In this document: positions 13,988 to 56,500 of the stretch, one piece after another
Layout: the number at the start of each line of letters is the position of its first letter
Position numbering within the stretch: the stretch's first letter is position 1
DNA from: Sphagnum magellanicum
Taxonomy: Eukaryota > Streptophyta > Sphagnopsida > Sphagnales > Sphagnaceae
Direction of reading: 5' to 3'
DNA: 64,000 nt
NCBI GenBank assembly: GCA_021904315.1
Contig: CM038912.1
Span: 11,061,061 to 11,125,060, forward strand
Notes under the pieces: generated by a model
Databases searched by the model: none
Seen by the model: the letters and a program-made list of their open reading frames with translations, nothing else
What the model was told of the DNA's origin: nothing
Made by a program: the position numbers and the translations under genes

Positions 13988-14849
13988 TATATGTCCAAAT
14001 GAAAATCTCACTACGTATCAATTAATTATTCGACAGACATGAATGTGCCAAAGTTGCCCAAGGTAGGTACTACCGTAATGGATACCGCCCATCCATATCC
14101 CTTTTGTAACTCCTCGACAATTTTTTCATGACTTATTTATTTAATTGCGGAGGGGATCATCGGCTTGTGGTTGGAAGTCTGTACTCGAAGCGTTGCTCAT
14201 TGTTGACATTAGTTGATCTTCCCGAGTGTTCACATCTCATCGTAATAAAATGCTTGTGTTGTTTGTTTGTTCTCATGTTGTTATTGTTGTTGAGTACTCC
14301 TTTTAAGTAGTTTTGCAGGTATCAAGTTTCATGATGTTGTTGTTCTTTGTTTTTTTGCAATTATTGTGACTAAAATATGTATTTAAATATTCCTCCAAAG
14401 AGAGAGAGAGAGAGAATTGGTTTTCAATAAAATCTGTACATGATAGAACAACCAAAAAAATCCCCAAAAAAAAAAAAAAAAAAGAGTGTGAATGGACCAA
14501 ATGGGTGATCACACATACTAAGAAATTTATGAACACTAGGTAATGTCATATGATATGTGGGGGGGGGGGGGTTGAGGGAATATATACACAAAAAACATCC
14601 ATGCAATATGAACCTTTGATGGAAGAAATAACATGCGGGTGTACGCCACACATTGGATACGGTTCGACTTGCGACCTATATCAATAAAAGTTTGTGGGGG
14701 AACTTGGATCATGCCAACATACACACCATGGTACGATGAGTTTTGAACCTATAAATGTTATGGGAGAGTTGGATTTTTGGGTCTCATTTTGTTCTTTGAA
14801 GAAAAAGGGTTGGGGGAGTTTCGGACTTTGATCCTTGACCCTACCTATT
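13500..14849. other. Intergenic low-complexity sequence, no gene seen
   Basis: Contains an ATTT microsatellite at about 13957-13988, a GA run at about 14399-14415, an A run near 14466-14483 and a G run near 14560-14571. The short open frames here are created by these tracts. No gene or transposon motif was recognised. Confidence 0.7.
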
Positions 14850-15344
14850 CACCTCTCCTATTAATTAGATGAGGTGCCTCTCTAGTTTTTTTTTTTTTTT
14901 TTTTTCCTCCCTGCAACAAGCCAATTTGATTGGTCCATCACTCAAAAAAAAATGAAACTATGAAGGCTCCCCAAAATAGAAGGTTCTATTTCGAAAAGTT
15001 AGAGTTCCTCCCCTTTGCCCCACCTATGTAGGTGAAAAGAGGATAAAAGTGAGGTGCTATGGAGAACATGTTGGGGAACAAATTGGGAACTTGGGGAACA
15101 TATTGAGAACTTGAAAGGAACATAGTGCAAACACATTGGGAACCAGGGAAAAATGAAAAAAAAATCCTTTCCCCCCCCCCCCCCCCCCCCCACCAAACTT
15201 GAAATGAAAACAAGCAAGGCACCTTGAGTGCATGCTTGGGCCTTCCCATTATTGGCTACATGAAATTTGTCTTACCAAAAAGAGTTGGTCACCATTTTTG
15301 GCCTGGGCTAATTACCCCTTGCAAAGAACACCCTACCTATTCAA
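14850..15344 (+). repeat. R repeat, copy 1 (about 0.5 kb, plus orientation)
   Basis: Shares an ordered series of blocks with 34579-35064 (minus orientation): CACCTCTCCTATTAATTA at the start, GCCAATTTGATTGG, CTCCCCAAAA, GTTCCTCCCCTTTG, a CACCTATGTAGGTG near-palindrome, GGGAAC-type short repeats, a long C run (15171-15191), AAGGCACCTTGAGTGCATG, TTGGCTACATGAAATTT, and an end resembling TATTCAA. No protein is encoded. It is most likely a non-autonomous transposable element, class unknown. Confidence 0.7.
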
Positions 15345-29217: not shown

Positions 29218-32200
29218 ATTCCAATGTTCATAAATTTAAAAGTATCCCAATGCATGGGATTTTAAATGTTTTGTGAAAGGTGTGATTTAAGGCACATTTG
29301 CAAGATCAAGGGAACAAGTTTTTAGTTGTTTTTGTTCAATGCACAAAAAATAACATAAATTTGCAAAAATATGTATGCATTGCACTTTAAACGTTTGGTT
29401 AAGGGGGTATAACTTCACCATAAAAGGTTCAAATTGTAATTGACTTGTAAAATTAGTCTATGGGGGTGCAAGGTGCATTTATATTGGCAAAAATCTAAAC
29501 ATAAAATCAAAGAACACATTGCAAGCTTCAAATATTATAATGCAAAAATTATGAATAATGCAAAAATAACAAAGGAGATTCTTATACATATTTGCATGAT
29601 TTTTCTTAAAATATTAATATCAATATCTCAAATCTAGTCAAATTTAATTTGATTTGTTTACTTTTTTGAACTACAAAGAAACATGTCCAACTTATTGGTA
29701 AGTATGCTAACTATGTTAGAAGAGCTCCAAAGTGTCTTCAAGATTCTAGTACCTAATGCACAAGTGCTAAAAGTAATAATAGAATATACCCAACATAGAC
29801 GTGAAAGTATAAAAATGTGATGAATGCAAAATTGAAGAAATAATGTTAAAAGTAACAACAAAAGATATTAATAGAAAGGTGAAACAAATGAGTTTAATAA
29901 GTGCAAAATTGAGGATATAATGGTAAAAGCGATAATAGAAGAAACCAACATAGAAGTGAAAATATAAAAGAAATTTGATGAGTGCAAATTAAAGAAATAG
30001 ATAATTTAAATAAGGGATTTTTTTGTTAAATTTTTACACTAGTAACTAAATTTTTTTTAACTTCACATCATTTGCAACTATGTTGTAATTGAGATTTTAA
30101 AATTTTAAATAGAATTATATCATTTATTAATTAAGTCAATTCATTTACTATATTGGTATATAATTAAAAACATTTTTCAATTGGTGGTCATTGTTGAATA
30201 TTCCCTACATCAACAATGTTTCCAAGTTGAATGCCCATCCATGTTGGTAAACAATGTGATGCATGTTTTAATTAATGGGCCATTTTATAAATATTTTTGG
30301 CATTTAAGGTTTTCTAATTGCCATACATTCAAGACATTAACTACTGTTCAACTATTTTGGTAACACCATCAACATATATATATATATAGTTGATAAAATC
30401 TCTTAGAGGATGAATGAAATGAAATCTTTTTTGCATATTGTTACAACTATCTTTTTCAACTAGGCAAGATAGCTAGTAATTGAAGAAAATTTTGAAATAT
30501 AATTTTGTGTTAATGTGTACATTCAATACATATAATTTATTATTTCAATGTAAATTAAATTTTAATTTACAACATATCAAGCAATGATACATAGTTAATG
30601 ATTTTGTGGAACTATAATATTTATTCATTTTTATATACATGAAATCTTAATATTGTTCTAAATTGTCATGAAATTTTATTAAACATTAAACTACATGTAA
30701 ATTATATTTGTGTAAATGAATAAATCTGTATGATGCAAATATTTATTTGTGATTATAAATATAATACGCTAATTCCTTTGTGGCTTGTGGTAACAAATTT
30801 CATTTTATAAACATGGTAATTCCACGGGGAATTTGTTATAAAAATGAAGTATATATTTAAAAACATCACATGTTATGATTATGATGTAATTTTTGTGTGG
30901 GGTCTTTTTAAAAAACCAACATGTATTTTAACATTGCCCTTATTGAAAAATATATATATATTAAAATTTCGTTTGGATTATTTTGAAGGTTCCATTTAGG
31001 GTTTTTTTTTTCCTTTAAAGTTTATTTTGAGTATTCTTGGATCTAAAGGGTGTAAACATGTTGCACTTCAAAGGAGGAAAATGATATACAATGGATTGAC
31101 TATAATGTTGTTATTGTGAAATCAACATACAAACCAATAATCAAGTCAAAAGAAGTTTCAATGGCTTAAATCAAAGAATGACACACACAACCCGTGCTAA
31201 TTTCTACGATTGTCCAACTATTCCACAAAAAAGGAAACAAGGAATTATCATAACACAACAATTAAAGAATCAAAAGGAAGACATTTCAGGTTTTTGGGCA
31301 TTCTCTATATATTAATATGCATTTGCAAAATCCCCAGAGATTAACCTACCACTGATAACATATCCATCCAATGAATGGCTACCTGCAAAACTCAACATTG
31401 TGAAATGAGTGCAAGTATTTGAGCTAGGGGACTTGTAATCATTTAATAATTACCTTAGGGGCAACAAAACCCTTCACAAATATAATCCAAAATCTCCATC
31501 TTTTTAATTACACAGGGAGGCATGCTTCAAAATTGTGCAATAAAAGAGTTATTTTCACTAATTTTAGGCAATACTTTAAAGGTTACAAATGCTCCCATAT
31601 AAAACACTTGTATATGGAGGTAATCTTCGGTGTCATTAATGCACTTGTGTATTTTCAAGCATGATACAAACTAAATAGAAGTCAAAACGTTACAATTGAC
31701 AATGTAAAAGAACCAAATCATTCTCCATTTTAACTGTCGTAGGACCAATAATTTTGACTACATGCATTGTTCTCATGTAGAATCATGAAAACACTTTAGA
31801 TGCAATAATGCATGGGACCCTTCCATGAAACAAAAATCAAACTGGTTGTTGAAGATAACTTCATTTTTGCATAACTTCAAAACTATTGCAAAAGTGGTTC
31901 TACACAAACCCATAAACTACATGTGGTCGTAATGAGTAAACCTTATGCCAGGAAAAGGTTTGTTCACGTGAATGTTGTGAGTTTGTTCAACATTCCATCA
32001 ATCTACATGAAGTAGGCCTGCACATTTTCCATCGATTAGTTTTATCTAATAAAAAGTTTTTAAAGAAAGGATAATTATTGCATATAAAGGTGGGAACAAA
32101 TCATTGATCGTGTATTAGCATTTGACTGAAGACCTAATATTTGTATGCTGTAAACAACAACAATCCATAGTTTGGAAGCATAAAGATCTCAAGTCCATTA

Positions 32201-33240
32201 ATTCAAACTTAGTTTGGAGTATTGGAGCATAATGGAAATGTAATATTGAGGCATTCCATCAAGGTGTTTCTCCCTGAGGATAATCTAAATTGCCAAAGAA
32301 CATAAAGTGGAAGAAAACAAAAACCCAAAGTATATGGTAGTGGAATGTGATGTAGAGAAATGTTCCTAAACATATTAGTTAACCAAACATTATGTTGCAA
32401 AGATAAGAAAATTATGAACATGCATTGAAAAATTTAGACGGCAAAAAAACCAAAAGAATGTCATTTAGGATAGACACACCTAGAGAGAATAAATGCATCC
32501 ATGAATTTCATATCATTGGATTGGGTGGGAATTTGATGGAAAAACCTCTATAATTTATAAATAAATACAAAGTTTTGTGGACAATGGGTTTCATTTTCCA
32601 ACCATTGAAATCCAAAATATTGCCTTTTAAAATCCTACTTGACATTTGCTCCCCACAAAACACCATCGAGTTTGCACTTTGAAATTCATGTTCACATTGT
32701 GTTTTCAACCTCAACCACCACCTGTTCGAACTCTTGTCAGAACCAAGTTCTTCAACACATCGTAGTGAAAACATACTTAGAGGAAATCCACCTTCCTTTT
32801 GCAATAGCAATGGACACACAGCTGGTTGTGTTGAGAATCAAACATTGTGGCAAGGACCCTAATTTGAACAAAGAGTCTATAAACTTTAATATGTGCCCTA
32901 TTGGGTTTGCTTTTGAACTGCCAAAGGCAAGAATCAGTTGTAAGGTGAAGTAAACATGGAAACCAGTCCTTGAGAGAATATAACCTATGGTGCTTCTAAT
33001 GAAATTGTTCTACTATCATGTGCACTTTTTTTTCCAACACACAAGTCGTAGGCAAACTAATGGTGATGACCCACCTATAACTAGCAAATGCTTAACAATT
33101 GTTGTTAGAGCAGTGAACTTGGAAAAACCTTGAGACTGCAATGCAACATTAAATTTATCGAAACTAATTCCAACATTAGAGGTTAGTGACTTGGTTCAAT
33201 TGCTGAAAATAGTCAACACGGATATCTTTCATGATATCAA
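29218..33240. other. AT-rich intergenic stretch; possible unidentified gene fragment at 31.26-33.0 kb
   Basis: 29218-31250 is AT-rich with an AT microsatellite near 30373-30388 and nothing recognisable. From about 31260 to 33000 the composition is less skewed, and the minus strand has exon-like pieces: SHSLDGYVISGRLISGDFAN after a TTTTGCAG acceptor near 31386, EILDYICEGFCCPK near 31460-31500 before a GTAATT donor, and GGFPLSMFSLRCVEELGSDK near 32740-32800. I cannot assign them to a family. They could be a decayed host gene or chance open frames. Confidence 0.3.
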
Positions 33241-33526
33241 TTACACTACTATAAATTTTGGGTTTTGCAACTATTGTTTGCAACTAAAATTCAGTTGCAT
33301 GTGACACATGCAACAACAAATTTGTGTAGTTGCCTAAAACAAATTGCACATTACATTCAGTTGCATGTGACACTATGTATACAACATGTCTATATGGTGT
33401 TAATATACATGTTCATCCATACATTCTAATCCAAATGTAGTTGCACCTTGTGTGCAACTATCTTTACAACTACAATGTAATTAATAAAAATATGACATGT
33501 GTTTAAAAATTGGACAACTAGCTTGC

Positions 33527-33539
33527 GGACACGTGTCAT
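33527..33539 (+). repeat. Subterminal inverted repeat with G-box core, left side
   Basis: GGACACGTGTCAT, 283 bases inside the left end of the CACTA-type element. Its exact reverse complement lies near the right end. It contains CACGTG. Confidence 0.7.
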
Positions 33540-34578
33540 TATCTAATTTTTTTTGTGTTTTCAAATTAAAAAATCCATTGCATTAATCTCAATCATTAAA
33601 GTTTCTGCCATTAAAATGATGACACATGGCACACCATGGAACCTTCATTGACCATTTGACATGTGTTTTTTTTAAACACCAATTATATGATGACACGTGG
33701 TAATTAAGGCTCACCTATTTTTAATTTTAAAGTATTAATTAATAAAATTTAAATCGTCCAATTTATGCTTAATAAGATGTTGACACGTGTTGCCTAGATA
33801 GGTAATTATTAAACCCTATTAAATAAGTAAGTTTATTTAGGTATGTAAGTAGGTTGAAAATAACTAAGTTTAAGCTATAAAGGTAAAATTAAAATAATCC
33901 AAATTTATTTTTAAGATTAACCATTTCATAAAGGTTAAGTTTTATTTATTTACTCATCCCCAATGGCACTTGGTGTTTGGTTTTTAGAAAGTTATTGTTC
34001 CTACTTATATATTGAGCCAAATATAATTGGAAGCCAAAGGATATGGGATAAAAAATTCCATTGCATACTTCATGAACCAATTTAGTTGCACATTATATGC
34101 AACTAATGTATTAGAATATAACTACCATAGGAAGGCTTTGTTGCTTATGGTGTCCAAACAAAACTTGAAGCCCTCTTCTTGGCACATCTAACACACTAAG
34201 GATCGTTGAAAATAGATTAGAAACGAGAAAGTTATGGCCCCCCAAAGTAAAGGGGGTCAAAAACTCAGAACAAAAACCATTGAACATTATAAAGGCCGAC
34301 TCTTAAACACCTAGAAAGTTCCTTTTATGTTGTTTTTTTGTTATTAAAGTTCAAACATGATTTGTAGAACTTTAGCTCTTATAACATTTTAAATCATTTA
34401 AAATGAATAATAAATAAGAATGTTATGAAGTTTGAAAGTAGGAAGGGTCCAAATAAAAGAAAAAGAAAAACGTTTTCTAACTTGGAAACTTTTTTTTCTT
34501 TTTTTTTTCTTGTATCAAAGTCCATTTTGTCCACTTCTACCCATTAATTATTTTAAAATATTAAATGTGCCCCAACAT

Positions 34579-35064
34579 TGAATAAGTGGGGTGTTTTTTG
34601 CAAGGGGCGTTAGCCCATGCCAAAAATGGTGATGAAGTCTTTTGGAAAGAGAAATTTCATGTAGCCAATGGGAAGGCCCAAGCATGCACTCAAGGTGCCT
34701 TGTTTTTTTTCCTTTTATGTTTTGGGGTGGGGGGGGGGGGAGGGAGGAAAGATTTTTTTTCATTTTTCCCGACTTCCCAATGTGTTCACATTATGTTCCT
34801 TTCAAGTTCCCAATGGGTTCCCAATATTTTCCCCAACATTTTCTCCATACCTCCTCACTTTTATATGCATTGGAAAATGGTGTCCTCCTTTCACCTATAT
34901 AGGTGGGCCAAAGGGGAGGAACTGTACAGTTCAAAATAAAGCATTTTGTTTTGGGGAGTTTCCATTATTATTATTTTTTGGAGTGATGGGCCAATCAAAT
35001 TGGCACGTTGCCCAAAACAAAAACAAAACTTGGGAGGCACTTCATTTAATTAATAGGAGAGGTG
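34579..35064 (-). repeat. R repeat, copy 2 (minus orientation)
   Basis: Same ordered blocks as the copy at 14850-15344, inverted: TTGAATAAGTGGGGTGTTTT, GGCGTTAGCCC, TTTCATGTAGCCAATGGGAAGG, GCATGCACTCAAGGTGCCTTG, a G run, GTTCCCAATGTG-like short repeats, the perfect palindrome CACCTATATAGGTG (34893-34906), CCAATCAAATTGGC and TTAATTAATAGGAGAGGTG. A further tail-like piece (TAGCCAATCCGAAGG) continues to about 35160, next to the end of the Helitron coding remains. Confidence 0.7.
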
Positions 35065-35253
35065 ACTATTTCCCCAAATTTATTTCCTTGACATTAACTT
35101 AGGCCAAAAAGGTAATTAATAGTTTTGGAAATAGAAATTGCATGTAGCCAATCCGAAGGTGCAACATCCATTCAGACGCCCTAGCTTTTTAATTTGGGTT
35201 TTGGGGGTAGGGAGGATGGAGTCGCGAACGTAGTTTTCGTTACAACCATTTTT

Positions 35254-35268
35254 GCATCTAATGCAAGG
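35254..35268. repeat. Short perfect hairpin downstream of Helitron coding remains
   Basis: TTGCATCTAATGCAA: 6-base arms with a 3-base loop, about 80 bases beyond the end of the helicase reading frame. Helitrons carry a small hairpin near their 3' end followed by CTRR. No CTRR is found at the usual distance, so this is only a candidate. Confidence 0.3.
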
Positions 35269-35345
35269 AATTTCAACCCGTGATTTGGATGTGGGAATTC
35301 CGACCCATCAAGAGATAAAAGTAGGCAATAGATAGAGAAAAGAGA

Positions 35346-38300
35346 TCATCGCAACAATTCCATATAAACAATGGTGGTCGTTGTCTTGCCATTCGGGTAG
35401 AAAACAGAGACGTCATTCACACGCGTAGCTCGTGACAGAGCTACATATAATTGGCCATGGGTGAAAACAGGTTCAGGCAAGTAAATGCCAACGGTTTTCA
35501 TGGTCTGACCTTGCGCCTTGTTAATGGTCATAGCGAATGCCAATTGCAAGGGGAATTGGCACCTTTGTAGCGTGAATGGCCACTTCAAATAGTTTGTTGT
35601 TGTGGTGATGCGCGGTATGTTGTCAATATTCCCCGCATGCGCGCCACCAATGATCTGCGCGATGATCAATCTCCGTGCCAGGCACCAAATGATTATACGG
35701 GTCCCATTACAAAATCCTGAGGCTGCATCAAGATTTCTTTGTAAGATAATAGGGGCGCCAACTTTGAGGGCCAGACGATGTGGTGGCATACCTGCCAGAG
35801 TAATGGTGTTGAAAAATTTTGTGCCAATCGCCATAGCCTGGTCGTCCCCCGTTTCCACTGAGTCTGCTAATAAAAATATGTGCTATTGCCCGGGCACAGC
35901 CTCGACAATCTGAGTGTTGAGAGAGTTCATGACTATATTTTTTATTATTAGAATAGCTCGACCGTCCATGTATCCTTGGGTTTACGTAATTGATTGCCAG
36001 GGCTGGGAAAACAGTGTGGATGAGGGTCTCTAAAGATGGCACTTGATGGATTTCCGGTTATAAGGTGATATCGACTCCGATTGAGGGCTCCGCTTTGGCT
36101 TTCGATGGAAAATGATCAATAATGGAAGACTTTTGGCCATTGTCGACTTTCAGAAGGTACTCAGCATACGGCCTGGAGAGGGGATCGGTGTGCAATCTCA
36201 TGTTTTCCATGAAAGTCAAGACACGCACTTCATGCCATAAAATCGAACACGAAAAGGCCGTAGAAACGATTGCTGCCCGAGAGCCTCTAGACACCACTAG
36301 CGGACATTGTCGGAAATCACCCCCAAAGACAACCACTTTACCGCCAAAGGGCGAATATGGGTGTCACATGATGTCGCGCAAAGTTCAATCTATCACCTTA
36401 GCACAGTGTCGGTGTTGTGCTGGAGCCTCATCCCAAACGATCAACTTTGCTTCCTAAAGTAGTTCAGTATAATCACTTTGCACAGGTATCGAACACATTG
36501 AATCCCTACCAAGGGCAATTGGGATCTTGAAAACTGAATGTGCGGTTTGTCCACCTTCCAATAAGAGAGCTACTATGTCGGAATAGGCAACCCTAATGGC
36601 GACATGTTCGTCTTGTCGAACCAATGCCCATAACACATTATATACAAAGGTTTTGCCTGACCCACCTGGACTGTCTGGGAAAAATACTACACCTTTGCCT
36701 TGGGCTACTACATTAAACACTGCAGTGACAATTTTTTCTTGAGAAATGTTGAACCACGAAAGATTTTGGTTAATGTAGCCATGGAGTACGTCTTTATCAT
36801 AATTAAGCTTTGTAGCCAATTGAGGATTGACACACAACATTTTTATAGGTGGCAAAGCGAACAACATTTCTGGAAAGTCGTGTAAGCCTTTGTTCGTCAA
36901 TGTTAATTTGGCCTTGAGGAATAGTAGGGTGTCATTATAGGCATCGTCGACAATGCCTCCATTCGTGATGCGTTGATGCCGCATATTGTGCGACATATCG
37001 TTTCAATATCTTTCCCATAACACTTTCGGATTCAAAGGAGAGCATAATAGTAAGAGAGTCACGAAGATATTCCTTAGCCTTTTTGCGTCTTGATCGATAC
37101 ATGCTTCTCGCATGCACATGTCCCATTTTGTGTCATCCTGCAGTAATCCCAGTGTTTTGCAAGCAACTTGAAATGTCGGATGTTCTATGTCGTCAACAGT
37201 TCGGAGATGTTTGAAAGAGGTCACGCCCGGTACGATAGTAAGTAGGAGGTGGAGGAAAAAGCGTTCACCAATGGCGAGATGTATGAAATACATTCTCCCA
37301 ATAACTTTTTCTCCTCATTATCGGGCCGACCAAACTTTTTCTTGAATTTTCCAAACATGATCAGCAGGGAAGTCTGCGTACACCACGTCTCGCCCATCCA
37401 CATTTTGAGCGTTATATGCAAAGTAGGCGGTCAAGGTGGTTTTTTGGCAGGCAGCACGTTTCGCCACAGTGGCCAAATTTTCATTTTCATTAAAAATGAC
37501 GTTGTGCTGTCCTGGCAAATGAATAATTAATCGAGTGATTGGCGGCCATTCCATATGCTTTTTGAATGAAAGTAAGGAATTGACCCCTTCAGTAACGTTC
37601 AAATATCTAACATTAATGTATTGCTGGATTTCATTTATTGGACCGATAGTCACTGTTGCAAGATGGTCAAGACCTTTGTAAACATATTTAAAAGGGTATT
37701 TGACACTTAGAATACCAGCGGACACCTCGACATTAATATGTGCATCAAACATCTTGATAAGGTAGGGGTTGTGGGGCACCACCCATTGGTTGTCGTACGC
37801 AAAGCCATCTGGAGGCTTTTGAAACATTCGACCATCATTTCGTTGACAGTAGACAGGGTAATTGTCTTCGCCTTGTGTTGTCTCCTCGAAGAAAGCTCGC
37901 GAATATTGTTTCTTGCATAAACCATTGACCATGCAAGGTGTGTTGGGGTATTCTTGGCCGCATGGTTTGTGCAACAAACATTTTGTGATCGTTTCAAAAA
38001 GAGGTGCGTTCTCTGTAAAAGGAAGCTTTGCCGACACTAAGCGATCTATGTATTCGGTTGTGGAAACTTTTTGCTCTGGAGGAAATATAAGGAGCAAATG
38101 GATGTGAGGTAGGCCTCATTTTTGGTATTCCCTTGTCCAGATGTTCCCAATAACTTTGGCGAACCATCCAATTTTTGCCATTCCTTTAAGAAGGGCTTTC
38201 ACTTTCATCTCAAATACACGGGCGACCAAATCTGGACGATTAGAGGCTGTTTGGTTGGGCTCAAGCTCTGCTATGATTTCCTGCCACTTCAGGTTACAAA

Positions 38301-39805
38301 TGAATGTGAGGAAGACATCCGGAAATCCTTTGCTTCGCACAATAGCCATCGCATCTTGATACGCTTGCATCATGAAACATGGAGAACCACGAAATGAAGT
38401 TCGGAGAATAATTCGCTGACCCACTTGCGTAGGATCTAATTGGAAATCATGTTCGACCGTATTTGCTAGCCCTTGGTAGAGTTCCACACGAAGTTGAGCT
38501 TGGTTTAACACCAAAAAATTAAAAGTGTTATTCTTTATCTTGGCAATAACATCGACGATATACTGTTGAAAAAGGCGACCATCGAGATGCAGAGCGAAGA
38601 GTTCGCCACTAAAGTGCACTATTTGTGCGTAATAAGCCGCCATTGAGACCCTTATGCGTGCTCCATCTTGATTGTTCTGTAGCTGTAGATTTTCAGACCA
38701 CCCGTCCTCCCCAGCAAGGAAAAGCAACGGGTATTATACAGGATCGTAAAAAGGTGCTAGCTCGTTCATCCATTATAAACCACCTCCATATCATCGTTGT
38801 ATAATGACATCACGATTTCCAACCTCTGCCGGCTCACCGGGAATTATCATTGCAACCTTGTTTGCCGTAGGGATGTTGTAACGGTGGACATCTCCATTTC
38901 CTAGGGTACGACCAGTTGTAATGCAAATGTGGACCTCCTCTACAGGGTTTGCGACGAGACGATTAGTTGCATGAACGAAGATGTTTACATAAGGATTTAC
39001 GCGCCCGAGGAACGTGCGAAATGTCGTCAAATGTGCCGGGCTTAGATTAGGGTTCTGCATTTGCCGATTCGGACCCTCATTTACTACATCATGCACATAG
39101 GCCTGAAGAAAGCGTGGCAATTGCTCTTCTGTGGGTTCCATACCACCAATCAAATGGTAGAATCCTCCTTGCATTTTGTAGGTATGCACTCCTGGTCCAA
39201 GCTTGAAGCTCACATTCTGGACCCTTGTGGACGTAAATGCAAATGCAACATTGTATAAACGAAGATGTTTACGCAATTTGGCATTTTGTCGATCTTGAAA
39301 CATCGCCATGTACTCTGGCGGGGTGCGAATAAGAGGAAAAAAAATTTTCCCTGAGGCACAACATTTATTATAGTGTGGTTTTCGAAAAAAGCCCCCCTGT
39401 GCGCTTTTCGATCCAGAAGCAAGAGCCACAATGGTTGCATTGTTCATTCAAGCATCCGAACACTTGTCAGTCTATTTACGGGTTGGCCAAGGGGTACCGC
39501 AAATCTCATAGGGCCATGTGTTGTCCAGCTTGAAGTTGATTTTTTGTGTACGCAACGCGATGTTGTTAAGCGCATCGTGCAACATCTATCATTAATTGGG
39601 CTTGACGACCCCACTCTGTTTCAACAACATGCGCTCTCGTGTGCTTTTCCAATAATCGTTGAGCAATATTAGCCATACATCGTGCTTCCTCATGTTGGGC
39701 CCCATTACACGCAGCCCTTTTGAAAGCTATTGTAGCACGATGGAGTCTTTGACGTTCTCGAGCAGATGTTCGCCTTTCTTCGTTGTTTGCATATCTGCGC
39801 GGCAC
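35346..39805 (-). pseudogene. Broken Helitron replicase-helicase (RepHel)
   Basis: Minus-strand pieces in the order of a plant Helitron protein. 39805-39566: basic amino-terminal segment (RRTSARERQRLHRATIAF). 39447-38791: the CASGKIFFPL and FAFTST region. 38727-38116: Helitron-like N domain (CFMMQAYQDAMAIV, SNRPDLVARVF). 38097-37318: Rep domain, with the HUH motif PHIH and the two-tyrosine motif YPFKY. 37293-37003: linker (TLGLLQDD). 36996-36454: helicase with Walker A GSGKT. 36336-36058: VVFGGDFRQ and NMR motifs. 35858-35346: FAMTINKAQGQT and FTHGQLYVALSRAT. An in-frame TGA stands just before the HUH motif and there are at least six further frame changes or stops, so it is not functional. 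Its GC content is clearly higher than the surrounding DNA. Confidence 0.9.
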
Positions 39806-40089
39806 TCCAAGGCCTCGTCTACGATTCTTTCAGTTGAAAGCAAAATGGAGTCAAACTTTAAAAACACAATAACATAATTTCATATTTAATTACCATTACG
39901 ACATGCACAAGTCTAACCTCGAGGTTAGCATATCCAGGAGCAATGTATATGTATTCTCTATGTCATTTGAGTATCAAGTAGCCCTTTCCCAGTCAGACAA
40001 AACCAATTTAGTTTTAAAGAATCATATGAGGTAGTAACCCACCAGAAACACCACACATGGAAGAACTAAAAGGAGTGAGGAAGAGGTAC

Positions 40090-41137
40090 CTGTGCCATGA
40101 CAGTATTTGTAACGCTTGTGCTTTTGTTGTTTCACATTGTTCAACTCTACAACCATGAGTGACGTGATGATTCCCACAGCTCCTCTCGAAAATGATGCCA
40201 CAATTGGGTCAACTTCACTGCAGCCCCCCACCCAACAATCTTAAGTTTAGGAGCACATACAAGCTCCTAAGTCAAGACTTCACTGTTAGATAACCATCAA
40301 AACGACTCCTTGCAGGTCCTACTTTGTTGTTCTCTTCATGGAAATGAAAGGTTTAGAGGATAAACCTCAAAATGGTCCAAAATCACAAAATTGTTCTTAC
40401 TGGGCCAAGTGGGCAATTTGTGTGCAATTCATGGCCTTTTAAGTCAAACAATTTTAGATCCAGGATTAGGGAAGACTATCAAAACCTGAGCTGAAGTGGA
40501 AGATGCATGTTCTTAATGAAGTCTTCACATGATGTGCCCCAATCCCCAACTTCAGTTCCAACTACAGTGCATAAAATCCAAGAAAAAAAAAAACCATAGA
40601 CAATCAGGAATGCATAGGGTCCTTGTGAAACTCTAAACTCAACTACTCTATTTGAGCCTGCTAACATAATTATGTTTTTCAAGCCTTGGAGACACATCAT
40701 CTAACGATGTATTTACAAGTGCTTGATTTTACTTTATGTTGGTTTTAAGTTTTTGTAATACATTCTTTTCAGCTTTACATCTTGAAAGAGAGTATGGAAA
40801 ACCAAGAGATTGATGAAGAGTCTTACAATGGGATCTATAAGGCCACCAAAAAGAATGATTCCAGCCACCAGTGAAAGGCAGCTTGCAAAATACTGCTGCA
40901 AAGTCTCTCTCCGACCCAATTCCAATAGACTTTTGTTTCTATGTTCCTGAATCACAAAATGCTCCAAATTGTCATCATCATCATCTTTTTCTTCTTCAAA
41001 TTCTGGTTTTGGGGATGACTACCAAAAACCTCTTTCCAATCGAATTCTTCCACACTTTTGTTTATGTGTTCCTGAATCACAAAATGCTCCAAATCTTCTT
41101 CATATGTTTTTATTTTGTGGGACCACATATTGAACAA
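40090..41137 (-). pseudogene. OR: Fragment of the host ORANGE gene (plastid DnaJ-like zinc-finger protein), with introns
   Basis: ORANGE is a plastid membrane protein that stabilises phytoene synthase and promotes carotenoid storage. Three exon-like pieces on the minus strand, bounded by GT-AG signals: about 40985-40827 (SLLELGRRETLQQYFASCLS followed by AGIILFGGLIDP), 40561-40486 (LELKLGIG, then after a one-base shift TSCEDFIKNMHLPLQL) and 40217-40090 (SEVDPIVASFSRGAVGIIT, then VVELNNVKQQKHKRYKYCHG). These match the transmembrane core and the KRCKYCxGTG start of the zinc finger. The fragment stops before the rest of the zinc finger and has no plastid transit peptide. A duplicated segment, LEHFVIQEHINKS at about 41070-41112, lies upstream. 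Retained introns show it came from genomic DNA, not a cDNA. It is truncated and frameshifted, hence non-functional as ORANGE. Confidence 0.85.
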
Positions 41138-41254
41138 TGGTGAAGGTGCTCTGAGTCATTCACATTCATCACTCTCCAAAGTTATGGTCTATTTTGGGGG
41201 GTGGGGTATCCTAGAAAAAATCTGCCTATTCAAAGTTTTTTTCAAATTTATTTG

Positions 41255-41492
41255 CCATCTCATTCATGCTTACTGTCTCATCACTACCAATATTCAGTGG
41301 CTCTTGGAAGTCTAATTTTGTCAACCTGCAAATGGAACTAAGGATCTCGTAAACCGAGAGAGACATTATCTTTTCCCATAAGAATCACTAACTGATTCAA
41401 GTAAAAAAATTGCAAAAATCTCCATTCAACCCTGTGTCTACATACATACTTTCCTGCTATGACCACCTGAAAAACAATAGAGGAGAGAATTG
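41255..41492 (-). repeat. Duplicated gene fragment, copy B (238 bp)
   Basis: Direct repeat of 42512-42750, about nine bases in ten identical by eye. On the minus strand it has a CAG acceptor, a tiny exon-like VVIAGK followed by GTATGT, then MSLSVYEILSSICR with a CAG/GT boundary, LTKLDFQEPLNI and a GTAAGC donor. It looks like two or three exons of one host gene, which I cannot identify. It lies between the ORANGE and TrmL-type fragments. Confidence 0.7.
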
Positions 41493-41577
41493 GGACATTG
41501 TTGAAGTAATTCACAATTGGTTATACAACTAATTGTACAAACCTTATCTCCATGAATCTTATCACCCCCAACTTCAG

Positions 41578-42306
41578 AGTCAAGGGAACCCATCATTGTA
41601 CTCATAATTTCCCACAAACATCAACATGCTTTGATCTAAATAATCACTTGGTGAAACGTCCAAACTACTATAGTTGTTTTCAGCATCAAGTTGCCTAAGA
41701 GCTTCATACACCCCAACACTTGCTGACATTGAAAGATTCAAGGAGCGCACAAATGTGTCATTCATTGGAAGTCGCACAATACCCCTTGTATACGGCCCAC
41801 AATGGCACTCCTATAGTGCTGCAGGAGGAAGGCCATCAACTTCAGATCTAAACAAAAGTTAGTCACCTGGCCTGTATTTAACATCCTGCACCCACTCAAC
41901 CCTGCATCTTGACTTCAAAAAAAATCCTAGACAACACAAACCTTGCATCACATATTTCATCATGCTGGATTTTCGTCATTGGAATAATGTCCATGGTTAG
42001 AAGACTTATTCACATTTCAAGTGCTCAACACACTCATTGTTTAGTCTAGCCTTTAACCCCATTATTTGAAGGAGAATCAAAAGTCAAAGTCTTTTAGAGT
42101 GCATATCTAGCTTCAGAAATCTATAACTTTATGAAGATTATGTTTCCTTTCACCAGAAAAGATTCAGTGCTAAAATCATGTCATCTACCGTTTGCTAATA
42201 CAATGCTTGTAAAATAGGTGGAAGGGAAACAAACCGTGTGAACATGTTTGCCATGTTTTGTGAATGCAAGCAGTCTCTTCTCCCCCTCTTGCAATTGCAC
42301 CACAAT
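41578..42306 (-). pseudogene. Fragment of a TrmL-type (SpoU family) tRNA 2'-O-methyltransferase gene, with intron
   Basis: SpoU-family enzymes methylate ribose 2'-OH groups using S-adenosylmethionine bound in a trefoil knot; the TrmL branch acts on the tRNA wobble base. Two minus-strand exons join in phase 0: 42306-42235 (VVQLQEGEKRLLAFTKHGKH) and 41885-41578 (DVKYRPGD, LLFRSEVDGLPPAAL, then VRLPMNDTFVRSLNLSMSAS and VGVYEALRQL). The last block is the family's knot motif IPM...VRSLNLS..V....YEALRQ. TGA replaces the usual Trp after RPGD and TAG follows PPAAL, so it is dead. The amino-terminal half is absent. Acceptor and donor signals are still visible, so an intron of about 350 bases was carried along. 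Confidence 0.85.
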
Positions 42307-42511
42307 CTATGATCCTCAAACAAACATAACTACATTCAATTAACACTACATGATTAATCGTCAATGATAAAATTCAAGCAATTGATTACAACATTAGAAT
42401 GTCCAATGAGAGGCTGCAAACTTGCTGCTGAAAATATGCAAAGAAGTCAGTCCAGGAGCTATGCACTTTCATCGCCACATATCTGCCCACCTTGCTCTTG
42501 AGCATGAAAAC

Positions 42512-42750
42512 TCCATCTCATTCATGCTTACCGTTTCATCACTGCTAATATTCAGTGGTTCCTGGAAGTCTAATTTTGTCAACTTACAAATGGAACTAAG
42601 GATCTCATAAACTGAGAGAGACATTATCTTTTCCAATAAGAATCACTAACTGATTCAAGCAAAAAAATTGCAAAAATCTCCACTCAACCTTGTGTTTACA
42701 TACATATTTTCCTGCCATGACCACCTAAAAAACAATAGAGGAGAGAATTG
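42512..42750 (-). repeat. Duplicated gene fragment, copy A (239 bp)
   Basis: Direct repeat of 41255-41492. It encodes VVMAGK and MSLSVYEILSSICKLTKLDF continuing to QEPLNISSDET before GTAAGC. The two copies stand on either side of the TrmL-type fragment in the same orientation, so a duplication or a second capture of the same source gene placed them there. Confidence 0.7.
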
Positions 42751-43133
42751 TGTCCGGAGTCACATTTGTCCAAACAACTTGAGGTTTTGATAAGGTTTTA
42801 AAAAACATGCGTGCGGTCGGATGGACCCCGCACCACCACCGCAGCTGATGTTGTTTCAAACTAATAGTAGACTTTGGGGAGGGAGGGGGGCCTGGTATAG
42901 CGAAATAAGTGCATAGCTTTTTGTCCCACATCCTAAGTAAAGAGACCGATTCCTCATTTTGGCCCTGATGATGATCGGCTTCGGTTTTTTTTCTCAGGTT
43001 GTACATGGTTTTTTCGTCACATTGTGTGGGTGGGGTAAAGGGCGAAGGGGCCCCCTTTGAATGTTGGCTTCACCGCCACTCGCTGCGACTGGAGCAAAAT
43101 GATCGAAAGAAAGGATTATGTGCAACATCCTAA
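42751..43133. other. GC-richer block between captured fragments and R repeats
   Basis: Clearly richer in G and C than the flanks, with CG dinucleotides. A 93-codon open frame on the minus strand (42725-43006) overlaps it but has no motif I know. It could be the 5' terminal part of the Helitron or another captured promoter or exon. Confidence 0.35.
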
Positions 43134-43745
43134 TTGAATAAATAATAAGTACCCCCAGTTTATAATGGGGGTATTAGTCAAAGTTGAAAATGGTGCCAAA
43201 AAGTTTTGGGAATAAAAGTTTCATGCAGCTAACGGGAAGGCTCAGCATGTACTCAAGGTGTCTTGTTTTTTTCTTTTAAGTTTGGGGGGGGAGGGGGGGG
43301 GGGGGAAGGAAGATTTTTTTCATTTTCCCTTTGTTCCAACAGGTTCCCAATGTGTTCCCCATGGGTTTTCTTTTAAGTTTTCGGGGGGAGGGGGTGGAAA
43401 AAGGACGATTTTTTTCATTTTCCCTTTGTTCCAACATGTTTCCAATGTATTCCCCATGGGTTTTCTTTTAAGTTTTGGGGGGAGAGGGGGGCGGGGAAAG
43501 AGGAAGATTTTTTTGATTTTTCCTTTGTTCCAACAGGTTCCCAATGTGTTCCCCATGGGTGTTCCTAATCACACCTTGCTTTAATCCCATATGTTTTGTT
43601 CAAAGTCCTCCCCTTCTCACATATATCGATGGGCCAAAGGGGGAGGCACTCCATCTGTCCATAGAATCTTCAATTTTTGTGAACCTTCATAGTTTCAATT
43701 TTTTTTTGCTGGGGCCAATCAAATTCAATAAAAAAAAGTTGGACT
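43134..43745 (-). repeat. R repeat, copy 3 (minus orientation), with internal triplication
   Basis: Begins TTGAATAA like copy 2 and contains TTTCATGCAGCTAACGGGAAGG, TACTCAAGGTGTCTTG, CATATATCGATGGGCCAAAG and GGGGCCAATCAAATTCAAT. Its middle (about 43269-43560) is three tandem units of about 96 bp, each made of TCTTTTAAGTTT, a G run, a T run, TTCCCTTTGTTCCAACA, and CCCAATGTGTTCCCCATGGG or a close variant. A perfect inverted repeat, TACCCCC and GGGGGTA, lies at 43150-43173. Confidence 0.65.
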
Positions 43746-43763
43746 TGTGAGGGGTAAAGGTCA

Positions 43764-44150
43764 GGCCAAAAACGTTGATAAATTTTTTTGGGAGGAGAAA
43801 TTTCATGTAGCCAATGGGAAGGCCCAAGCACACACTGAATGTGCTTTGCATTTTTTCCTTTTAAGTTTGGGGGGCCGGGGGATTTAAAGGGGGATATTTT
43901 TCAGTTTTCCTTGGTTCCCATTATGTTGACCATCCCACCATCCGATCACTTTGGCTGGCCAAAAATGGTGATAAACTTTTTTGGGAGGAGAAATTTCATT
44001 CAGCCAATGGGAAGGCCTAAGCACACATTGAATGTGCCTTGCATTTTTTCCTTTTAAGTTTGGGGGACGGGGGATTTAAAGGAGGATATTTTTCAGTTTT
44101 CCCTAGTTCCCATTATGTTGACCATCCCACCATCCGCTCACTTTGGCTGG
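43764..44150 (-). repeat. Tandem pair of partial R repeats (about 193 bp each)
   Basis: Units 43764-43956 and 43957-44150 are nearly identical. Each runs from GGCCAAAAA through TTTTTGGGAGGAGAAATTTCA, CCAATGGGAAGGCC, TGCATTTTTTCCTTTTAAG and GGATATTTTTCAGTTTTCC to CATTATGTTGACCATCCCAC. Both resemble one end of R. Confidence 0.75.
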
Positions 44151-44449
44151 GGCCTTCAAAGGAAAGGGGGTGTGGGGGGGGGGGCTCTAGCCAATCATGA
44201 ATTACCGCATCAAGACACCGACGCTCATTTCTTTATAGTAGTAGATAATTGATTATCATTATAATTATAATAAGCATTTAATTGATAATTACGAATATTT
44301 ATTATAAATTTTAATATTATCATATTAATTGATTTTAAATAATTTTTTGTTCAATCAAATTTACATTAAAAAAAATTCCAAATGAAATAAAATCAAAGAG
44401 TTTTACTTGCCAAAACAAATATTTAAATATATTTGACAAATAAAATTAA

Positions 44450-44640
44450 AAAACTTGCAATATATATTTAAACCATGGTTTAGTTTAGTTTAATTTAATT
44501 TAGCCATGGTTAATTTTAACCATAAATATTTTAGCCTAATAAATTTAGCCATGGTTAATTTTAGCCATAATTATTTTAGCCTAACTTAGTTTAATTAAGG
44601 TTAATTTAGGTTAGCCTAAGTTAGTATGGGGTTAACCTTA
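44450..44640. repeat. Degenerate short tandem repeats (TTAG/TTAA and CCATGGTTAA type)
   Basis: Repeated TTTAGCCATGGTTAATTTTA and TTAGCCTAA blocks in an AT-rich stretch near the right end of the CACTA-type element. Confidence 0.6.
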
Positions 44641-44732
44641 GTACTAAAAGCACATAATATTATTATACATAACATATGTAAATATATTAAGTATAATAAT
44701 TTAAATATGTATAAATTTAGGCCATCATTTTT

Positions 44733-44745
44733 ATGACACGTGTCC
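44733..44745 (-). repeat. Subterminal inverted repeat with G-box core, right side
   Basis: ATGACACGTGTCC, 171 bases inside the right end; exact reverse complement of 33527-33539. Confidence 0.7.
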
Positions 44746-44919
44746 ATGTTGTACACATTTAGTTACACGTTAGTTGCACACACAAACATATGGTTGAAAA
44801 ATTATATAATATAATAAATTTATAGTTGTAAACATGATCGAAATAGTTGCAAACGATAATTAGTTGCATGTCAGTTACATAATGATTGGTTGCAAATGAT
44901 AAGATTTTTAGTAGTATTA

Positions 44920-47425
44920 AATACCTAAACCTTAATAAAAATATTACTAATTAAAAAAAAAAAATCTTACAATACATTAAGGACCATGTTCGACATCTTG
45001 TAAAACACAAAAAAAATGCAAGACTGTCTGAGAAGCAGACATGTGATATTAAATAGGTATCGATATGAAGAGCTGAACGTGGGAATGATTTTCATTGTGG
45101 ACATCGATGTTGTTGCGATAAAAGGTCATTTGCAAGGTGCTTTCAAGTAGATTAATTTTCGTTTCCCTTACTTTCAAACGAAGTTAATCTTTCGCATGGA
45201 TTTGTTTAAAGCTTGATTAATGGGAGATAAATTAGCTTGTCAAACAACATATTGGCACAACGTCTGGTTTCAAACATACAATACATAACTCAATTGTTAT
45301 TTTTGATCTTGGATGAACATGGTGTAATGTTATAGTCATGTAGTTCGGAATAATATGATAGTCTTGTGTTGAGGTTATAAGAACATTCTATAGGTAAGAA
45401 ATGTAAGTTGCCCACCAGATCGTATTTCTCGTATCCAATTCTAATCGGGTTCATAATTGTGGTGTTAGTATGAAGTTTTGCAATTTTTTTCACATAACAT
45501 GAAGTGTTCAAAACTGACAAAGTGGCAATGAATAATTACCTTCCATGAACCATGAAATCATGAAATATAATAAATCCCTATCTATATGCGGAGTGGATTA
45601 ATAGTTTTTAGTAATTGCCATAACTACAAAATAACTTTTCCCAGTTCGAAAATTGCCAAACGATAACTTTTTTGGTAAGAAGTTATCTAACTATTGAAGC
45701 CACGATGTTAATTGTGGACATAAATTTGCTTGCACAAATTGAGTTGCCTAACTATTTACAGAGTGTTCTAGTTCTTCCTACGATTAGATGTTATGTTTTT
45801 TTATGCTTTTTGTAGTGTGTTGACACTTAAGGAAAATAAAACCAAAAGTAAGGAAAAATAATGGAAAAAAAAAGAGAAAAACATCAAATTTTTAAAGAAA
45901 CATCCATGTGCAAGTTTGGGCTATTTCACATCACTAACTTGTTCACAATAAGATCGTTACGACAGACCTTACGTTCGAATAATGCCATTTTAGTCTCTTG
46001 AAAACAAGACTATGGTGTGGTGTCACCATGTCGAAACAAATTTCCCAATGTTTGAACATGTTTTGATGTTTCTATTGGTATAACAAATTCGTGTAAGATG
46101 ATGGCCACTTCCCATGGTAATTTTCAACATGGAATTTTCAAATATCTTGTGAAAATCACCAAGAATTAGATAGTTTTTCTTGTTTTGCCCTTGTTGTGTC
46201 ATTACATGGTCATTATTTTTTTAGGGTTTTTAAAAAAAGGTTTGTTGTAATAGCTCCTTTAAGGTTATTTTAAAGTTTATTTTAATAACTTTTAAAAGAT
46301 TAATTTTATATTACAAGTTTTAATTGAAAAGCCTTTTAAAGGTTTATTATAGGTATTTTTGTGGTTTTAAGAAATTATATATATATATATATATTTGATG
46401 ACATGTTTTAATATTAATGATTTTTCTACCATTTTAAAAACTAACAATGAAAATATGTTTTAGGTTAAACATAGGTAGCGCTAAATTTTATTTTAAATTC
46501 AATGAACTTTAGTTTGTTAAAATTTGAAAAATTAACAAAATTAATGATTTTTCATCATCTACGCCCATGTGAGATCCATTAATGAAGTTCACATTGTAAT
46601 AATGTGATCGGTTAAGTTGATTTATAAAAATCATTATTTTTGTCCATATTGTACATAAAACATAACAATGTGGTCATGTATAATTAAAAACATAACAATG
46701 TGGTCATGAATATTTAAAAACATTTGATTTTGTTTACCCCTCGCCATTCGAAATAAATGTAATCTTAAAGCTTAAATTAGATGATGAAATATATGTTATT
46801 GATTAACATTTTCACATACCATATGAAAAATATGAAATTTAGATACTATGAGTGGGGTAAAAACATATTTAATCACATTTTGTCATATTTTGAAAACATT
46901 TCGAATGGCATGTTCATTCATGTTTTTAAATTCACACCTTTTCATTTTAAAATATAATGTTCTATTTCCCCTTTTCATTGGATGTTCTCATTTTTAATTA
47001 TTTCAAAACATTTCAAAGTTGATCATCTAAAGAAAAACTAACATTTTAAAAATCTAATTTTTTTCTTCAACACAATTATAATGCTACATAATTTTCAAAT
47101 GAATAAAACCTTTGGAAAACAAACCAACAATTTTTTTCAAATATTAGTTGATTTTTATTTAACATAATCATAAAATTATATAATAAGGTTATTAAAAGGA
47201 TTGATTACATTTACAAGTTGGATTTGAAAAAAATAATGAGTAAATGACCATGCATAATTTTTTAATGACCATTTAAACTATTATAAGCAATATGACCAAC
47301 AATATAACTAGAATTATAAATAGTTTGTTTTAGAAAAAAATTAAAGGTAAAACATGACCATTAGTTTTTAATTAATATATAAACTAAAATGATTTAAAAG
47401 ATTAGGTGTATAAACTAATAAAATG

Positions 47426-53523: not shown

Positions 53524-56500
53524 ATGGCTAAAAGTGGCGGAAGAACCCAGCATGACAACTTGGAGATTGAATCCATGGGCACTTTGTACAAGGGTGAATG
53601 GGAGAAGAAGTACTGGAGTTGCTCTCGGGTACTGTTATAATCTTTTCTTTTTTTTTATGCAAATGAGCAGCAGAAATGTGCAATGTCAAATCTGTGCTTG
53701 TATTTTGTGCAGGACACCACCCACTCAGGTAACTTATTTGTCTGATCCAGTTTCTTCCACAGGAGAGAGACTCTGATCATCTCATCAAATGAGAATGTTG
53801 CCTTCCATGCATCAAAACATTCATATCAGATGATGATGATGATGATTAAAGGGGATCTAAATTCAGAGTTATAAGGAATCACTTAGATTTGGCTATCATA
53901 TCCAGGGGAAGGAGAGGCACCCATATCCTGTTGGATACAAAGCCACACGCCGTCATGGTGGACATAACTACTCTATGGAGATTGGCAAGGGGATGCGAGG
54001 ACCTCTATTTTCAGTATGCAGAAATCTCCTTACTCTTCTCCGCTGGCCACCTTTTTTGTACACCCTATATATGTCCACTTTTTGTTTTGCATTTTGTTTC
54101 TATGCTCATCAATTGTAGGAGGAAAAATCTTGTATTGTCCACTTGCAGCATCAGAGGGTGATGAGCTCACCCACTGCACCCATGATGATCTTCCATTTTC
54201 TTTATCACCTTATTGGCTACTGTGAGCTTTCAAGGCTCTAAACCACTTGTGAAATTTTGCCACAGGTTTCCTGTGAAGAAGGACTTTCAAGCTCTGGCAA
54301 CTCCACAACTGTGGTATGGGATAACATGTTGCGGAAGAAACATGTGGGAGCAAAAAAGTTGCACTCTGCTATTGATGGTTCTGAGGTAGATAACATTCAC
54401 CATCTTCCCCATTTGGATATGAAAACATAGCAAAGAAAGGACAGGAGGCCTAAAACATTTTTGGAGACTTGCATCAGACCTGCAGAAGTTGTGACAAAAT
54501 AACCAGAAAAGCACTCAATGCAGAATGCCCCTCTTGATTATTATTGTTAATCCACTTGCAAATGTCTTTTTGCTGATGGTTTAGGGTTTCTGAAATAGCA
54601 AACTGTGAAATGTGGTGCAGTTGTTTGGTTTTACCAACCCAACAGTGCAGCGTTTGTTTCAAGACCTGGTTGCTGCTGAAGAAGCTCCAAAGTCTGGAAA
54701 GTCATTGAATGAGACTATAAGTACAACAGAGGATAGCAGCATTGTATGCAGGGTAACCCCAGCAATTAGCTCAAGAAAACGACAAGGTCAGGGTTCGCCT
54801 CAAGAGAGCCTCCAGATAAACCCAAGACAGTTGGAGGGTGTGGTCAGTGAGGGTAGTAATGAGAAGCAAGCAGAGGTCGAGCCAACTGTCAGGGTGCAAA
54901 AAGGCTTGAAACCCTCAAGACAAGTCAAGATCCTCCCTAATGCAAGTGACCAAGTCCTTGAATGTAGCCAAGAGGATGTGACCAGAGATGCATTGTCTGT
55001 ACCAAGCATTGAAGTCACCACCATAGAGAACAACCCCAATACCAAGAGGCATTCACTTGAATCAAACACCATGGGCAAATCTTTGGAGTCAATTGACACA
55101 GTTTATGAAGGGAGAACCTCAAGAGATCATCTGCCATCAAATATGGAGATGTCTGAAGAGCCACAGTGGATGAAAGAAACTGCCAAATATGGAAAGGAAG
55201 TTCTTCAGTACAAGAGGCGTTCACAAGGTCGGGTAGAAAAGGAGGTAGTTAAGCAGTCAGCACAAAAGGCCATTGTTTCTTCTGTGGGTCATGGTGCAGG
55301 CATGTTGAGTCGGCCTAAGCTACACACAGTTAAAGGGAAAGGAAGCCATGAGACAAAAGCTTTGACACTAATAAAAAAACAGCCACTACAAGAAGCAACA
55401 ATATCCTCACCTGGACAATTTCTTTCACCGATTTCTGATGCAAAGCTTGAAGACTTCAATCTCCACTCAGTCACCAAGAAACGAAAAGTTGGATCACAAG
55501 TAAGGGAGCCACCTGAACAGCAGTTGAACTCTAATGAAGTGGCAGTCCATATAGACACAACTGAAGGAATGGTGGAAGGAACTTCACTGAGGGAAACCAA
55601 TGTTGTAAGCTTAAGGGTTGAATGCCTTGCAGATATTGCAATGAGAGTGCCTGTACTTGAGTGTCAAAAGAGCTCATGCAATAGCATGATTTTGGTTCAT
55701 GACCATTCCACTCCTGAGAGACAAGTGCAACTGCTTCCACAAAAGAGTGTTGCTGTGGCTGCCGATAAAAGTCCACGGACTACTGCTGCCCCTGTATGTG
55801 CAGCACATTTCTATTTCCCCCTGGCTGCAAATCTTAATTAATCTCATGTGAACTGTCTGAATCTAGATCTGTTGATGTTGTAATTTCTAAGAATGCTCAG
55901 TGAGCTCTGTATCTGGTTAGCTTCTTATTTTGATAATTGTATGTGGGTCAGGACCCCTTGGTTGTGGAAGAGGGTAAACAACCAAAGACAGCTGACAAAC
56001 TAAAGCGAATGCAACTTGCGAGACCAAGCAGAAGATCCAAGGCAAAATTTTGTGAGCCTGCAGTAACTATAGCTGGAGGAATCAATAGTGATCAAGCTCC
56101 AAGTGATTCCATGCATGAGGAACATCAGGGTCCTGGTTGCTGTCCTCAAACACCCTCTCCTGAGGCTAGCAAGGCCCCACTATGCCCAGAATCTTGCATC
56201 CCTCATGCTGGGGGAGTGGGGAATGTTGTGGAAGATGGTGCACATAGGATACTGGAGGCCTCGAGGCTGACTGGTGAACATTTGTCACCCAGTCAAAGCT
56301 GCAAGGTGAAGTTGTCTGAGCCCCTAGTAACTCCTGATACTGCAAAACTGACAGAATTTGCAGCTTCTACTACTGGTATGCATGTCAAGGACCCTGAACT
56401 TCCAGTGAGAAATGCAAGCCCTTTACCTGATGCTGAAGCTTTTGCCACAACTGGTGACTCTGTGGGTGAACCTCACAAACATGACAACTTTAAGGGTGCA

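Follow-up and report, generated by a model that had tools for sequence, protein, structure and literature searches.

A decayed Sphagnum Helitron carrying intron-containing pieces of ORANGE and of a TrmL-type methyltransferase gene

We conclude with high confidence that the feature described here is a decayed copy of a RepHel-encoding Sphagnum Helitron family which carries, between its 5' end and RepHel, DNA-level pieces of ORANGE (from C13) and of a TrmL-type tRNA methyltransferase gene (from C18). The evidence comprises intact parents, alignments that run through the introns, a 5' terminus, a family 3' hairpin-CTAG, a common RepHel-ORANGE joint and many dispersed copies. The copy lies in a 64-kb stretch of DNA (C6:11061061-11125060; this whole stretch is called the window), which was analysed together with the genome it belongs to (438,994,042 bp, 31 contigs). 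It is very probably immobile now, because its RepHel is broken and its 3' end is not recognised.

Two gene pieces and their parents

Read 5' to 3' on the minus strand, positions 42750-39943 hold D2 copy b, TrmL, D2 copy a, the ORANGE 5' region and the ORANGE exons, and RepHel follows. D2 and R are repeats. Positions are those of the window.

44226..44245, minus strand: Helitron 5' terminus TCTACTACTATAAAGAAATG; first base 44245, preceded by a host A
43168..44122, no strand assigned: copies of repeat R within the element's 5' part, among them a tandem array (95 bp x 3.1) at 43269-43564; same place in L103
42513..42750, minus strand: D2 copy b; shares GAGATGG with the TrmL edge
41497..42522, minus strand: captured TrmL-type methyltransferase piece, comprising the end of one intron, three exons with the two introns between them complete, the stop codon and 83 bp of 3' flank; parent C18:5053078-5054104, 92.2% over 1027 columns
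42481-42422, 42288-42235 and 41885-41580, minus strand: TrmL exons, the last with the stop codon
41255..41492, minus strand: D2 copy a, 92% identical to copy b
40900..41101, minus strand: captured ORANGE 5' upstream/5'UTR stretch; parent C13:7584885-7585083, 89%; internally repeated
39943..40904, minus strand: captured ORANGE piece, running from within exon a through exons b and c, with the introns between them, to 147 bp of the following intron; parent C13:7582573-7583529, 91.2% over 963 columns
40904-40827, minus strand: ORANGE exon a, cut inside the exon
40561-40486, minus strand: ORANGE exon b, with a 1-base frame break
40217-40090, minus strand: ORANGE exon c, with GT directly after
35346..39829, minus strand: decayed RepHel gene with Helitron_like_N, PIF1 and Pif1_2B domains, interrupted by several stops and frame breaks
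34511..35226, no strand assigned: repeat R at the expected family 3' end; the hairpin-CTAG is missing from this copy

A preliminary description had located, at 40090..42306, truncated pieces of two unrelated genes on one strand, with introns and splice sites kept, upstream of a Helitron RepHel on that strand. The location is real, if slightly too narrow, as the captured blocks occupy 39943-40904 (plus 40900-41101) and 41497-42522; both gene identities are confirmed by protein and parent-DNA matches, and RepHel does lie downstream on the same strand, with recognised domains (Helitron_like_N PF14214, E 4.5e-41; PIF1 PF05970, E 6.4e-55; Pif1_2B PF21530, E 1.5e-17). In a search of 5.8 billion proteins, the best relative of the ORANGE piece was P0001 from S. 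troendelagicum (E 1.6e-47) and that of the TrmL piece P0121 from S. jensenii (91% identity, E 3.0e-72). PDB and Pfam searches concur that the latter is a tRNA methyltransferase of SpoU/TrmL type; in Pfam this broken fragment, which bears two in-frame stops in exon 3, scores 28.5, slightly below the curated cut-off of 29.7. Chance is excluded by these E values and by the DNA alignments to the parents, each a single block, of 963 and 1027 columns. When the full parent proteins were searched back against the window (tblastn, 64 kb, E<0.2), matches were limited to residues 181-275 of 345 for ORANGE and 161-299 of 299 for TrmL. Scans of viral collections found no related DNA, and a bacterial collection gave bacterial TrmL genes only (best 80 of 129 loci). 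Elsewhere in the window, 54609-59155 (plus strand) contains three long open frames (410, 872 and 161 aa), for which Pfam gave nothing at the thresholds applied; these are possibly exons of one large host gene.

Both parents are intact and collinear, and both lie on chromosomes other than C6. For ORANGE (C13:7584800-7581968), eight collinear protein matches span residues 1-345; stops appear in four of the eight match rows because six-frame matches extend into introns, and the spliced model is stop-free, identical to P0001 at 312 of 345 residues, with TAA directly after. The TrmL parent (C18:5055733-5053164) gives seven collinear matches, all stop-free, spanning residues 1-299; its spliced model is likewise stop-free, identical to P0121 at 283 of 299 residues and followed by TGA, with one tiny exon that is probably an artefact of forced alignment. 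A second ORANGE-like gene is located on C8. Two further loci were rejected as possible parents since both are degenerate: L117 (C16:8540801-8543400, ORANGE exon b) and L118 (C17:3389001-3394400, TrmL-like). Their pieces, at 88% (L117) and 83% (L118), are more decayed than the window's and could stem from earlier captures or be old copies of the same one; L117 also has Helitron 5' and 3' ends.

The preliminary description had proposed capture at the DNA level and had suggested aligning intact parents, introns included. Such alignments give a single block for each piece, exons and introns together, with intron identities of 89.0-93.2% to the parental introns, and it follows that capture took place at the DNA level. 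Within the ORANGE block, identity is 93.8% in exon c, 91.8% in the intron, 93.4% in exon b, 89.0% in the other intron, 98.7% in exon a and 91.0% in the next intron; within the TrmL block it is 92.0% and 93.2% in the introns, 92.1% in the last exon, 100% in the middle exon and 86.0% in the 3' flank, while the first exon piece and the intron end beside it are together 93.9% identical to the C18 parent. Splice dinucleotides are canonical at eight of the nine sites examined, the exception being the site before the second TrmL exon, where AG is not at the expected place. With their introns retained, the pieces are not retrocopies. That both genes were brought here by segmental or tandem duplication, with no transposon involved, might be suggested by the D2 copies on either side of TrmL, which look like a local duplication; however, the parents are on two other chromosomes and cassette pieces with the same joint recur at dozens of dispersed places, so that we consider duplication or retrocopying extremely improbable.

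The captured 5' stretch corresponds to 85-283 bp before the first residue of the ORANGE parent. In the captured copy this region is fused to exon a about 9 bases in, and the first three parent exons, ~1.36 kb of DNA, are absent; the sequences at the joint display little or no microhomology. An acidic peptide upstream of ORANGE (EEDLEHFVIQEH...) had been a candidate third captured gene; a protein search gave no match at E<=1 among 76 candidates, and alignment to parent DNA identifies the stretch as ORANGE's own 5' region. At the joint between D2 copy b and TrmL, GAGATGG is shared, and the idea that the TrmL exon continues upstream with a deletion was ruled out, as the parent has an intron there.

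Relative to its parent, the ORANGE piece has 78 substitutions, of which 53 are C-to-T or G-to-A. An excess of these changes is usual in silenced, methylated DNA. The TrmL piece has 16 C-to-T and 27 G-to-A changes against parent DNA. Amino-acid changes alone give coding-strand G-to-A over C-to-T as 10 to 1, with 2 ambiguous; strand-asymmetric deamination was nevertheless dropped, since ORANGE compared with its real parent DNA has 27 C-to-T and 26 G-to-A.

Helitron ends and dispersed copies

At position 44245 the 5' end of the element reads A|TCTACTACTATAAAG, and the same edge is found at other loci. The motif is present with 0-2 mismatches in L108, L110, L111, L112, L115 and L117 and in altered form in L116; homology between the window and L108, L110, L111, L112 and L115 stops at 44245-44247. 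Allowing up to three mismatches, the window has one occurrence, and a search of 38 own-genome stretches gave seven more (altered L116 included). Four of the 11 other cassette stretches (L108, L110, L111, L112) have it, the remaining ones being short, so that they may not reach that far. The base before TC is A in five of the eight occurrences; of the others, L110 and altered L116 have T, and in L115 the position is taken by the G of a tandem CTAG.

The 3' end of the family is seen in L115 (C2) as CATTTTGCAAGCAAAATG-GGTTTACCAA-CTAG, that is, an 18-nt palindrome, 10 nt and CTAG, with the TC of the next element directly after. L117 (C16) has a variant with the same palindrome, 10 nt, CTAG and then TC; in L116 (C1) the palindrome is present and the end altered, and in L114 (C3) divergence sets in before the 3' end. 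Two family Helitrons thus stand in tandem at L115:865-895 (C2:25078765-25078795), the CTAG of one joined to the TC of the next, and L117:2086 may be likewise. In the window copy, the family 3' end has no match with up to eight mismatches and there is no recognisable CTRR with hairpin; the copy departs from the family at ~35226, where repeat R is found instead. We read the missing hairpin-CTAG as a 3' truncation. The full extent of this copy is not closed, because no 3' CTRR end is recognisable; a candidate end at 34220, whose score several other matches in the window equal or exceed, does not correspond to that of the family. A different Helitron RepHel, with 29-55% amino-acid identity by piece, was encountered in a random genome sample (L092:6188-9830).

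Helitrons, CACTA and Pack elements had all been named in the preliminary description as possible carriers. The shared 5' TC, RepHel, the family hairpin-CTAG and the joined copies confirm the first; the other two lack support, as there are no long terminal inverted repeats (TIRs) in the window copy. Capture by a TIR element (Pack-MULE or CACTA) with later insertion of a Helitron would be compatible with the retained introns, since TIR elements too carry intron-containing fragments (PMC1947982, in the portion available), and with the inverted R copies that lie on both sides of the TrmL module in L107 (C10). Yet no inverted arms of 30 nt or more were found in 33-46 kb of the window, those in 39.5-43.3 kb being short or imperfect only (among the 25 longest of 29); R also occurs without the cassette; and the cassette lies inside the Helitron 5' end in the window, L108, L110, L111 and L112. 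We therefore hold this sequence of events to be very improbable and the Helitron to be the carrier. R itself is a dispersed G-rich repeat, present in the window at 14846-15344, 34578-35068 and 43168-44122; the copy at 14.8-15.3 kb seems, by eye, to sit between TGAATAGGTAGGGT direct repeats. It was rejected as the Helitron's own ends because it is also found in an unrelated 10-kb sample.

A genome search with the cassette gave 93 matches at 36 places on 15 contigs, window and both parents included, and these counts are lower bounds. ORANGE exon c is present at at least 27 of the 36 places (window and parent included), and both gene pieces at at least 16 (window included), in 11 of which the TrmL part is just 52 bp. 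This shortened form recurs at at least 11 places (on C1, C2, C4, C6, C7, C8, C9, C17 and C18), which indicates a successful subfamily.

Eleven other cassette stretches (L103-L113) were compared with the window. Alignments cross the RepHel-ORANGE joint at 39943 in eight of them (L103, L104, L108-L113), and the joint is identical at all eight, while L105, L106 and L107 are without that part; a gap of ~50 bp lies just beyond the joint in L108, L112 and L113. Were the window considered alone, the gene pieces would merely adjoin RepHel, the ORANGE edge being within ~115 bp of the Rep reading frame, and a Helitron might have inserted beside or into an older pseudogene patch, leaving the pieces outside the mobile unit. 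The crossing of the joint at eight other loci contradicts this, as do the Helitron 5' terminus outside the cassette and the lack of further ORANGE or TrmL exons beyond RepHel in the window; we regard such a patch as highly improbable and the pieces as internal to the element. At the eight joint loci the ORANGE module is 90.9-92.8% identical to that of the window (matches of at least 300 nt), except in L113 (85.2%). It reaches 40902-40904 in four of the eight and in the window; compared with the parent, these five complete modules show 90.8-91.3% identity. Judged by sequence identity, the modules would fit one capture followed by early spread. Second, partial ORANGE copies in L108 and L109 are 87.2-87.8% identical to the window copy.

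The arrangement of modules varies. L105 has the window's order, ORANGE-D2-TrmL; L103 and L104 hold D2 and ORANGE without TrmL, and L106 and L107 hold TrmL with D2a without ORANGE exons, in each case within the fetched stretch; in L110 and L111, TrmL exon 3 is fused to the ORANGE intron beside exon c. The shorter derivatives L110, L111, L112 and L113 contain two copies of ORANGE exon c, the second at query 6-172. In L105-L107, RepHel or R pieces surround the cassette in mixed orientation, which implies that nesting or rearrangement is common; one clean element fails to explain these loci.

Comparison of the two D2 copies shows 18 differences over 238 sites, of which 17 are transitions. One reading frame of the tested stretch (KIMSLSVYEILSSIC..) has 8 of its 10 differences on third codon positions, as if D2 had formerly been coding; a protein search found no relative. 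D2 is absent from both parent stretches in the alignments to C13 and C18 DNA. Of its 25 genome matches, 24 lie in or within 2 kb of ORANGE- or TrmL-bearing places, with C2:3512425 as the exception, and no clear source locus emerged.

Assembly of the cassette and possible consequences

The family termini and RepHel suggest that rolling-circle transposition would have spread the cassette. Repair by microhomology or with filler DNA, while the element transposed, may have joined the gene pieces, and TrmL and ORANGE could have been united afterwards by exchange between elements via the shared D2 repeat; we infer this last step because D2 is common to most cassette arrangements. In the available account of Helraiser, the best-tested capture model is 3' read-through, which predicts captured DNA 3' of the element core (PMC4778049). 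Here the captures sit 5' of RepHel, for which 3' read-through by itself does not account; capture inside the element through repair or template switching seems likelier, or else an exchange between elements.

The ORANGE 5' region, with exons ending in an intact splice donor, lies directly upstream of RepHel in the sense direction. It is conceivable, though in our view unlikely, that a plastid-gene promoter was captured too, that the ORANGE 5' region and splice donor could thereby have driven RepHel and aided the spread, and that sense copies could feed small RNAs onto the parents. The short derivatives L110-L113 are without the ORANGE 5' region, which argues against promoter capture. As RepHel and the fragments share one orientation, antisense RNA, which the preliminary description had also considered, would need a separate promoter. 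Among the 21-mers of the parental captured stretches, 220 of 937 for ORANGE and 206 of 1007 for TrmL also occur in the window copy, and 436 of 937 and 508 of 1007 occur in the window copy or in 11 fetched stretches with other copies. With hundreds of 21-mers identical to ORANGE and TrmL in dispersed copies, trans-silencing is readily testable. According to the accessible part of PMC2600652, Physcomitrella has small-RNA loci, of the Pp23SR class, that overlap Helitrons, and one such locus is apparently itself a Helitron.

Relation to known Helitrons and other capturing elements

The published Helitron gene captures that we found, in partly accessible sources, are mainly from maize, bats, insects and fungi; the present one is from a moss. 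Titles and the opening lines of abstracts on Sphagnum Helitrons or bryophyte Helitron gene capture, a body in which subscription journals mostly fall outside the scope, contained no earlier account of such a family. Since parents, several joints, the 5' end, the family 3' end and many copies are found in one genome, it is possible to reconstruct how the pieces were captured and spread. Their position 5' of RepHel provides a case for which 3' read-through alone is not a sufficient explanation.

Multi-gene, intron-bearing capture by Helitrons is already known in maize (PMC4528327, as far as its available text goes). The maize elements Hel1-331, Hel1-332 and Hel1-333 described there similarly contain pieces of disparate host genes with introns and splice sites, carried as DNA. 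The moss element differs in keeping a recognisable RepHel, with the pieces 5' of it; chimeric transcripts have been shown in maize. Tgm-Express1, a soybean CACTA element, also holds several intron-bearing captured gene fragments, but it is a TIR element with a different transposase (PMC1947982, same portion as above), and the moss element is without long TIRs.

With Helraiser/Helibat the moss family shares 5' TC and 3' CTAG termini, a 3' hairpin ~10 nt before the end and a RepHel core; read-through in Helraiser adds 3' flanking DNA, while the moss pieces are internal and 5' of RepHel (PMC4778049, in the part available). The rice element Mothra and plant Helitrons bearing RPA, in the accessible text of PMC4683698, are alike in having TC/CTRR ends with a hairpin and both autonomous and non-autonomous derivatives in one family; that text reports plant Helitron RPAs in monocots and dicots only, and a six-frame search of 31001-45000 in the window detected no RPA domain at E 0.01. 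Taken together with these systems, the moss case is a well-documented new example of the known process of Helitron capture.
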